Shown piece after piece: positions 2,724 through 4,577 of a DNA stretch of 6,503 nt. The DNA lies in assembly GCA_016928495.1 (NCBI GenBank), contig JAFGKQ010000317.1, positions 1 to 6,503 on the forward strand. Reading direction: 5' to 3'. The position numbers and the translations under genes were made by a program. How positions within the stretch are numbered: position 1 is the stretch's first letter; the number at the start of each line of letters is the position of its first letter. The notes below the pieces were generated by a model, which ran no database searches, was not told the origin of the DNA, and worked only from the letters and a program-made list of their open reading frames with translations. The stretch comes from Candidatus Fermentibacterales bacterium (GTDB lineage Bacteria; Fermentibacterota; Fermentibacteria; Fermentibacterales; JAFGKQ01).

Positions 2724-2823
2724 TGGTGGCACGACGAAACGGCTCATTCAGCACCAGGAGCGATTCGTTCAACGGTACGGACGCGGTAGCGTGCTCGTAC
2801 ACATACAGGGAGGGATGGACCCT

Positions 2824-3900
2824 ATGATCAGGACCAGGCTGTTCCTGGCGGCGTCAGTGCTTCTGCTGCTCGCGACCGGCTGCGGCAGGTCGGCTGAGGA
2901 GCAGGCGGTTGTAGACGCCTACGAGGCCTTCGTGTCGAAAGTGGAGACTTCCGACTGGGCCGGCGCCTACGACTGCTTCAGCACCAATACCAGGGAATTC
3001 ATCGATCTGCTCGCCACCGGGATGTACAACTGGGGAGCCTCGGATACCGACGACGGCAGGGAGCTCTTCGTGAATCTCATGGAGGAGAGCGGCGAGGAGA
3101 TCACAGACATCTCCCGCAGCATCAGCTCCCTCACCGTGACCGGGCAGCGCGCGACCGTTGTCACCGCTACCGATGAAGGTGACGAGACCAACAGCTTCGT
3201 GATGGAGAACGGCGTCTGGAAGCTCGACTGGGAGGACTTCCTCTACGTGAGCGTGGACGAGGCCCTTCAGGAGATCGGCTTCAGCGTCGACGAGCTCCTT
3301 CCTGCCTACATCGAGACGGGCGAGGGTGAGGCCTTCGTCGAGATCACCAACGCACTCGGCAGTTGGACCATCCGGTACGTCTACGTCGACCCCTCCGACG
3401 CTCCCTGGGGCGATGACCGGTTGGGCGAGGAGCTGCTCTATCCGGGAGACGTGATAACGATCCACGTAGATCCGGGAACCTACGACATCCAGGTCGAGGA
3501 CGAGGACGGCGACACCTACACCCTCTGGGGCGTGGACCTCGATGCCGGCGGCTACTACTGGGAAGTCACCCTCGGCGACATCGACGGCGGCTGGACCGAT
3601 GAGGGCGAGGGCGGCGGATACTACGAGACCGGCGATGGCACCGCCCCTGTCACCATCTACAACGACCTGGGCTCATGGACCATCTGGTACGTCTACGTCG
3701 ATCCCTCGGATGCTCCGTGGGGCGATGACCGCCTCGGCAGCGACCTGCTCTACCCCGGTGAGACCATCACCGTCTGGGTCGATCCGGGCGAGTACGACCT
3801 CAGGGTCCAGGACGAGGACGACGACACCTACACCCTCTGGAACGTCAGCGTGGGTGAGGCCGGGTATAGCTGGGATGTCAGCCTCGACGACATAGACTGA
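2824..3900 (+). CDS. Putative lipoprotein 2: NTF2-like domain plus two tandem 85-residue acidic beta repeats
   Basis: Secreted lipoprotein of 358 residues, function unknown. MIRTRLFLAASVLLLLATGC is a signal peptide with its lipobox cysteine at residue 20. Residues 27-145 (VVDAYEAFVSKVETSDWAG, FSTNTREFIDLL, then MENGVWKLDWEDF at 127-139) resemble an NTF2-like/DUF4878-type domain and echo lipoprotein 1. After a short linker, two repeats follow: residues 170-254 and 274-358, joined by a Gly/Glu-rich linker. Each contains LGSWTI-x-YVYVDPSDAPWG, then DDRLG, LLYPG, VDPG, YD and an acidic DED-x-DTYTLW, a pattern I associate with small beta-sandwich modules in secreted bacterial proteins. The acidic loops could bind calcium (inference). 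The protein is very acidic. ATG 2824 is preferred to ATG 2815 because GGGAGGG (2808-2814) is 9 bases from it but directly abuts the other. A terminator follows at 3939-3978. Confidence 0.85.
   Translation: MIRTRLFLAASVLLLLATGCGRSAEEQAVVDAYEAFVSKVETSDWAGAYDCFSTNTREFIDLLATGMYNWGASDTDDGRELFVNLMEESGEEITDISRSISSLTVTGQRATVVTATDEGDETNSFVMENGVWKLDWEDFLYVSVDEALQEIGFSVDELLPAYIETGEGEAFVEITNALGSWTIRYVYVDPSDAPWGDDRLGEELLYPGDVITIHVDPGTYDIQVEDEDGDTYTLWGVDLDAGGYYWEVTLGDIDGGWTDEGEGGGYYETGDGTAPVTIYNDLGSWTIWYVYVDPSDAPWGDDRLGSDLLYPGETITVWVDPGEYDLRVQDEDDDTYTLWNVSVGEAGYSWDVSLDDID
3331..3585 (+). repeat. Coding repeat, copy 1 (residues 170-254 of lipoprotein 2)
   Basis: First of two 85-residue units of exactly equal length, starting AFVEITNALGSW and ending VTLGDID. 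By hand alignment without gaps it matches copy 2 at 59 of 85 residues (about 69%). The longest identical block is YVYVDPSDAPWGDDRLG. At DNA level that block differs from copy 2 mainly at third codon positions, indicating an old duplication kept under protein-level selection. Confidence 0.92.
3643..3897 (+). repeat. Coding repeat, copy 2 (residues 274-358 of lipoprotein 2)
   Basis: Second unit, starting APVTIYNDLGSW and ending VSLDDID immediately before the stop codon, so the protein ends exactly at the domain boundary. It is separated from copy 1 by a 19-residue Gly/Glu-rich linker. Conserved positions include W12, the Y-V-Y-V-D strand, PSDAPWGDD, LLYPG, VDPG, YD and DTYTLW. Confidence 0.92.
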
Positions 3901-3922: not shown

Positions 3923-3938
3923 AAGACACGAGACAGCG

Positions 3939-3978
3939 AAGGGCCGGAGTGCTGTGTCCAGCTCCGGCCCTTCTTCTT
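3939..3978 (+). terminator. Intrinsic terminator of the lipoprotein transcript
   Basis: AAGGGCCGGAG (3939-3949) pairs perfectly with CTCCGGCCCTT (3962-3972), an 11-base stem with a 12-base loop, followed by a pyrimidine run TTCTTCTT ending at 3978. It lies 38 bases after the stop of lipoprotein 2. Read on the minus strand the tail lacks a T-run, so it mainly serves the plus-strand genes. Confidence 0.8.
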
Positions 3979-4093: not shown

Positions 4094-4465
4094 TCAGATC
4101 CAGCTCGCTATTCCGTCTATGATGCTGCCGTGGTCGACGGCAGGCCCGTTGTTCGGACATGTGACTCTGTAGGCGTGGCCGTGCGCGTTCAGGACGTAAA
4201 GGTCGCCCGGGTGCCCTATGGGGCATTCCAGCACACTGGCGTTCCCCATCACCAGGTCCAGGTTGGTGAAGTCCATGGTGTACGAGTCGTACTTCGCGTA
4301 GTAGACCGCCTCCGCCGAGGCCAGCGCCCTCATGTTGGTCCGGCAGGAGGACTGGTTGGCCTGGTCCTTGACCGACGTGAACTTGGGAATGGCGATTGCC
4401 GCGAGGATGCCTATGATCACCACCACGATCATCAGCTCGATCAGAGTGAAGCCGCGGCGTATCAT
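4094..4465 (-). CDS. Type IV pilin-like major-subunit candidate (class III signal peptide)
   Basis: Prepilin of 123 residues: MIRRG leader of five residues, then a processing site G5/F6 for the prepilin peptidase and the N-methylated FTLIE motif with the conserved Glu at mature position 5 (E10). The hydrophobic helix runs from residue 7 to about 27 and ends in IPKF. The soluble domain is small, with cysteines at 41, 81 and 103; C81 and C103 frame a ECPIG...YRVTCPNN loop of the kind that forms the C-terminal disulfide in short pilins, and the end is DHGSIIDGIASW. The size suits a type IVa/pseudopilin subunit; a pseudopilin of a type II secretion system cannot be excluded, since no pil or gsp genes are in view. 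ATG 4465 is chosen over ATG 4483 because GGAGGA (4480-4475) is 9 bases upstream and the leader then has normal length. It is transcribed alone from a sigma-54 promoter. Confidence 0.93.
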   Translation of the reverse strand: MIRRGFTLIELMIVVVIIGILAAIAIPKFTSVKDQANQSSCRTNMRALASAEAVYYAKYDSYTMDFTNLDLVMGNASVLECPIGHPGDLYVLNAHGHAYRVTCPNNGPAVDHGSIIDGIASWI

Positions 4466-4490
4466 GGAGCCTGCTCCTCCCATGGTTTTT

Positions 4491-4501
4491 TCATGACATG
4501 A
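4491..4501. promoter_or_regulatory. Small dyad at the predicted pilin transcription start
   Basis: TCATG-A-CATGA is a perfect 11-base palindrome about 12 bases downstream of the -12 element, so it would surround the transcription start. A run of six A on the minus strand (4491-4486) follows. It could be a repressor site or chance. Confidence 0.25.
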
Positions 4502-4506
4502 CTAAC

Positions 4507-4522
4507 GCAAGATTCGTGCCAG
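4507..4522 (-). promoter_or_regulatory. Sigma-54 (RpoN) -24/-12 promoter of the pilin gene
   Basis: On the minus strand CTGGCACGAATCTTGC matches the consensus YTGGCACG-N4-TTGC at every defined position. The invariant GG (4520-4519) and GC (4508-4507) are separated by 10 bases, the required spacing. The predicted start is near 4495, giving a leader of about 30 bases to the ATG at 4465. Sigma-54 control of major pilin genes through the PilS/PilR two-component system is established in Pseudomonas, Geobacter and Myxococcus, so the context agrees with the motif. Confidence 0.88.
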
Positions 4523-4559
4523 AGCAGGTCGGTTGCGATTGCTACCGTTAAGCGTCTAT

Positions 4560-4577
4560 CAGGTTCATTAAAACCTG
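4560..4577. promoter_or_regulatory. Inverted repeat upstream of the sigma-54 promoter, candidate enhancer site
   Basis: CAGGTT (4560-4565) and AACCTG (4572-4577) are perfect arms with a 6-base AT-rich spacer. The centre is about 74 bases upstream of the predicted pilin start, close to the usual range for bacterial enhancer-binding proteins of the NtrC/PilR class. A partial half-site, CAGGTC, occurs at 4525-4530. That this is a regulator site is inference from position and symmetry. Confidence 0.5.

Follow-up and report, generated by a model that had tools for sequence, protein, structure and literature searches.

The pilin gene of the window, i.e. the whole stretch of 6,503 nt analysed here, is preceded by a sigma-54 promoter, and comparison with other genomes points to a PilR-type response regulator as its activator. 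We consider it quite likely that this gene is transcribed from the RpoN promoter at 4521-4507 under a PilR-type activator acting at degenerate copies of TTGCA-N3-TGCAA at 4648-4615, and that a CAGGTT dyad in the same intergenic region is incidental. Computational analysis revealed the promoter element, rpoN together with pilS-pilR, the conservation of the TTGCA dyad in two phyla, its linkage to pilR and a recognition helix shared by the PilR proteins concerned.

The window pilin gene and its sigma-54 promoter

The type IV pilin gene is located at 4094..4465 on the minus strand and encodes 123 aa from the ATG at 4465, with the prepilin N-terminus MIRR-GFTLIELMIVVVIIGIL. The product matches the Pfam N_methyl family (E 1.4e-8), and its nearest NCBIfam model is Myxococcus PilA, with a score under the cut-off of the model. 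Homologues are present in 60 of the 60 genomes searched, and the window pilin clusters with the second pilin class (support 95/90). The gene adjoins methyltransferase and sugar-aminotransferase genes and lies outside the pil cluster. It converges with a lipoprotein-like gene on the plus strand (2821-3900), which has no Pfam match; a tandemly duplicated unit of ~100 aa (SWTIxYVYVDPSDAPWGDDRLG... x2) makes up its C-terminal half. Between the two genes lies a perfect 12-bp inverted repeat, GAAGGGCCGGAG-N12-CTCCGGCCCTTC (3938-3973), which is probably a terminator common to both, with a loop above the limit of the terminator scanner.

The first-pass annotation had recognized a canonical GG-N10-GC motif ahead of the pilin, and this motif proved to be part of a perfect sigma-54 element. 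The -24/-12 promoter TGGCACGAATCTTGC at 4521-4507 on the minus strand agrees with TGGCACG-N4-TTGC, the context of its GG-N10-GC, at 11 of 11 fixed positions; it is the sole exact match in the window and is above chance. The last C of TGGCACGAATCTTGC (4507) is separated by 41 bases from the pilin ATG (4465), and the start site of transcription would be placed near 4496-4495. A Shine-Dalgarno sequence, GGGAGGAG, is predicted from the sequence at 4481-4474 on the minus strand, 8 nt from the ATG. TGGCACG-N4-TTGC has five exact matches in the assembly, a Candidatus Fermentibacterota MAG of 2.3 Mb (81% complete), and two of these matches precede its two pilin genes. A -24/-12 element likewise precedes the majority of the major-pilin homologues that we examined from the order, 36-88 bp ahead of the GF codon in their prepilin motif, and the earlier promoter call is therefore well supported. 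Neither a sigma-70 promoter nor a terminator was found near the CAGGTT dyad in the window.

The genome encodes the factors with which such a promoter would function

The arrangement of an RpoN promoter, a short leader, a ribosome binding site and the pilin gene, as originally proposed, is borne out by the conservation of the -24/-12 element across the order and by the presence of rpoN in the genome. A fragment of this gene covering the C-terminal DNA-binding domain was recovered at the edge of a contig, and full matches were obtained in 29 of the 29 relatives searched. A search of the genome with the PF00309 profile gave no match to rpoN because the gene is cut by the contig end.

A pilR-like enhancer-binding gene, which the first-pass annotation had suggested looking for, was found in a pilC-pilS-pilR-pilin cluster. 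This cluster, on contig C191 of the genome (G000), encodes PilC, a PilS-like HisKA/HATPase kinase, a PilR regulator of the Response_reg-Sigma54_activat-HTH_8 architecture carrying a GSFTGA variant in the sigma-54-contact loop, and a paralogue of the window pilin, which also has a perfect sigma-54 element ahead. The gene order pilC-pilS-pilR-pilA is known in Myxococcus and Geobacter. C191 also encodes a protein resembling O-mannosyltransferases, with a Pfam score under the cut-off. In addition, a 134-aa protein without a Pfam match is encoded between pilR and the pilin gene (G000:C191, L122:6063-6467, plus strand); its C-terminus resembles that of the pilin (HGSIVDGIPSW), and it is devoid of the prepilin GFTLIE motif. 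Six sigma-54-activator AAA+ domains in the genome, that of PilR included, are well scored, and a seventh match is weak.

TTGCA-N3-TGCAA is conserved upstream of sigma-54 pilin promoters

As judged from the sequence comparison, the conserved upstream element of the pilins in the phylum is TTGCA-N3-TGCAA, not the CAGGTT dyad. Among 37 sigma-54 pilin promoters of Fermentibacterota, 15 carry a perfect copy upstream of the -24/-12 element and 29 a copy with at most one mismatch, counts that are not independent trials because the relatives, all from outside the genus and family of the window organism, share ancestry. Controls with shuffled sequences and with other spacers bear on chance and not on phylogeny: at most one mismatch was reached in a mean of 0.4 and a maximum of 3 promoters in the shuffles, and the 29 promoters obtained with a spacer of 3 compare with no more than four for each of the other spacers from 0 to 10. 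Two groups of distances, 71-75 and 86-98 bp, predominate between the dyad and the -24 element. IHF sites between operator and promoter showed no excess over shuffles.

We searched 42 genomes for the exact module consisting of TTGCA-N3-TGCAA, 62-92 bp and TGGYA-N7-TGC. It occurred 19 times genome-wide, 18 of them preceding pilin homologues, and the reversed control gave no occurrence in the same genomes. The exception (L179:1502-1603, corresponding to G035:C2:13001-13102) is followed by a reading frame that, judged by eye, is metallo-beta-lactamase-fold-like. PilR orthologues are encoded within ~3 kb of pilins with a TTGCA dyad in more than 20 genomes. In Sabulitectum, pilR is the gene immediately preceding the pilin gene, and throughout the Sabulitectum group the dyad is located past the stop codon of pilR, ahead of the pilin.

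The same element was detected in Zixibacteria, where 18 of 37 sigma-54 pilin promoters have it with at most one mismatch (0.6 in shuffles), again with spacer 3 only and at 108-153 bp from the promoter. In the Zixibacteria loci L262-L300, the distances from dyad to promoter step by ~9-11 bp (108, 117, 126, 135, 147), which suggests helical phasing. Eisenbacteria carry the dyad at one locus, and none of the remaining homologous loci with a sigma-54 element, mostly from Proteobacteria and Myxococcota, has it with at most one mismatch.

The PilR proteins encoded beside pilins in Fermentibacterota, Zixibacteria and Eisenbacteria have the recognition-helix pattern G-I-[ND]-x-[ST]-T-L-[HY]-R-[RK] in common. 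Their helices read STLHRR or STLYRK, in contrast to RSFRYR or RSMRYR in the PilR of Myxococcus and Pseudomonas; the PilR-like proteins of Pyxidicoccus and Pseudomonas contain F-R-S-x-R-Y-R-L in the recognition helix. LuxO, the quorum-sensing regulator of Vibrio, also has a recognition helix of the STxYRK kind.

Degenerate TTGCA-type sites lie upstream of the window promoter

The window contains no TTGCA-N3-TGCAA site with one mismatch or fewer; its best sites have two. One candidate site of the LuxO/PilR type, TGGCATGACGCAA (4627-4615, minus strand, two mismatches), is located 93 bp ahead of the -24 element. A second candidate, TAGCTTTCTGCAA (4648-4636, minus strand, two mismatches), is positioned exactly 21 bp, or two helical turns, upstream of TGGCATGACGCAA and overlaps CTGCAAGTAGCGA (4641-4629, minus strand). 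The latter, 107 bp from the -24 element and closely following the methyltransferase stop codon, may supply the activator region with its upstream half-site(s). Two or more sites with at most two mismatches arose in 0.26% of the shuffles of this region (P 0.0026).

The sister pilins G024, G012 and G007, which belong to the second pilin class, have the TTGCA dyad at 94-95 bp. Moreover, the window shares CTGCAAGT with two sister promoters, that of G039, where it lies at an identical distance, and that of G024, where the distance differs by 5 bp (probability in shuffles ~0.02 each); the DNA around CTGCAAGT is otherwise unalignable with that of G039 and G024 (background identity 0.23-0.33). One of the degenerate TTGCA-type sites of the window overlaps CTGCAAGT. 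The two-mismatch sites could be decayed ones, and the ancestral PilR region, at the stop codon of the methyltransferase gene, would be recognizable but decayed, because the 21-bp-spaced sites and CTGCAAGT persist at the expected positions.

As the genome has six well-scored activator domains, another activator could serve the window pilin. The sigma-54 promoter would then be real, and activation of the gene would fall to an enhancer-binding protein different from PilR or would need no specific upstream site. The five activator domains besides PilR, the degeneracy of the TTGCA sites and the location of the gene beside methyltransferase and sugar-aminotransferase genes agree with such control, but the sister pilins keep the site at 94-95 bp and the window itself retains CTGCAAGT at the conserved position, and we regard this explanation as rather unlikely compared with activation by PilR.

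The CAGGTT dyad is probably incidental

A CAGGTT-N6-AACCTG repeat had been described upstream of the pilin and interpreted as the enhancer-binding site. The repeat is indeed present in the intergenic region at 4560..4577 (not assigned to a strand), 38 bp ahead of the -24 element, and its 6-bp arms are perfect. Such a dyad is hardly above chance: in shuffles of the 150-bp region upstream of the window pilin, a perfect 6-N6-6 palindrome appeared in 3.5%, and when all spacers of 0-12 were allowed, 30% contained a 6-bp dyad. Further sites upstream of -24/-12 elements, which the interpretation led one to look for, were not found in the genome; the copy at 4560-4577 is the sole exact one in the assembly, no close match lies upstream of any of the other sigma-54-like sites, and the dyad is absent at the paralogous pilin on C191. 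With up to two mismatches allowed, two of the 37 sigma-54 pilin regions contain it, namely those of the window and G024, and the G024 copy, CAAGTTGCGAAAAGCCTG, overlaps TTGCA-type sites of its own; at any other pilin examined the dyad is not conserved. Both motifs had been expected to be kept among relatives, and among those examined this holds for the promoter but not for the CAGGTT dyad.

Across 42 genomes, 35 exact copies of CAGGTT-N6-AACCTG were counted, and spacers N3-N9 pooled gave 159 sites; the words CAGGTT and AACCTG are therefore common in themselves. About 24 of the 35 copies fall in reading frames of at least 300 aa, and ~14 of these encode the kinase N-box Q-V-x-x-N-L; in two genomes of the Sabulitectum group, the gene concerned is pilS itself. 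A sequence coding for this histidine-kinase N-box naturally takes the palindromic form CAGGTT-N6-AACCTG (window 4560-4577; L145, L170, L174 and others), so palindrome scans in kinase-rich genomes will return the dyad spuriously. We rejected the dyad as the mark of a regulon, given the abundance of the N3-N9 spacers (159 vs 35) and the coding location of most N6 copies. A histidine-kinase remnant in the window was also rejected; the frame reads SRLDQQVLMNLIDA and has no Pfam match.

Being unconserved at other pilins, unlinked to sigma-54 elsewhere in the genome and represented mainly by coding words, the dyad lost its standing as an enhancer-binding site; it is probably incidental, and we conclude that pilins of the lineage do not use it as their operator. 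That it is instead a lineage-specific operator, for the activator, a repressor or another factor, which replaced the decayed TTGCA sites in the genus, is improbable: its perfect intergenic arms 38 bp from the -24 element, the degeneracy of the TTGCA sites and a set of relatives drawn entirely from outside the genus would fit, but it is a single exact copy, the other sigma-54-like sites have no close match upstream, it is missing from the paralogous pilin and the pilins of relatives, and 3.5-30% of shuffles contain a comparable dyad, depending on the spacers allowed.

Discussion

Returning to PilR as the activator of the window pilin, we propose that PilS would activate PilR, encoded on C191 beside pilC, pilS and the paralogous pilin. 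PilR may then bind the degenerate, 21-bp-spaced TTGCA-N3-TGCAA copies at 4648-4615 and loop from these upstream sites to the RpoN holoenzyme at 4521-4507, which would transcribe the window pilin from ~4496. TTGCA-N3-TGCAA would represent the ancestral pilin enhancer of Fermentibacterota, occurring also in Zixibacteria. We infer that PilR binds this sequence and still does so at the degenerate sites of the window; the signal and the output strength of the PilS/PilR route are presumptive.

More generally, it appears likely that the PilR of Fermentibacterota and Zixibacteria, and possibly of Eisenbacteria, recognizes a LuxO-type TTGCA-N3-TGCAA operator conserved ahead of major pilins. If so, the PilR family would hold at least two classes of operator and recognition helix, and the DNA specificity of LuxO would not be confined to Vibrio quorum sensing and may predate it, the LuxO operator occurring outside quorum sensing. 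For two uncultured phyla, the association would supply a cis-regulatory code of type IV pilin control that is open to testing, and would tie this code to a response regulator with a recognition helix that varies together with the operator. It also prevents CAGGTT from being wrongly annotated as an operator. Our literature search covered open-access sources, and TTGCA-N3-TGCAA could have been described earlier as a PilR operator, for example in the survey of Geobacter PilR to which PMC6058289 refers.

The system resembles the PilS-PilR/sigma-54 control of pilA in Pseudomonas, Myxococcus and Geobacter in the order pilC-pilS-pilR-pilin, in the sigma-54 promoter of the pilin and in an NtrC-type response regulator with a Fis-type HTH. 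The operator differs from that of P. aeruginosa PilR, whose reported elements are TGT-N11-AGA and GTCT (PMC6058289), and so does the recognition helix. The core operator is identical to the upstream activating site of LuxO at the qrr promoters of Vibrionaceae (TTGCA-N3-TGCAA / TTGCAWWWTGCAA; PMC3352281, PMC10162802), which is also located upstream of a sigma-54 promoter, and LuxO is an NtrC-type response regulator, as is PilR here. This likeness implies neither a quorum system nor a qrr RNA: whereas LuxO serves qrr in Vibrionaceae, the operator in Fermentibacterota and Zixibacteria precedes type IV pilins, beside pilR.
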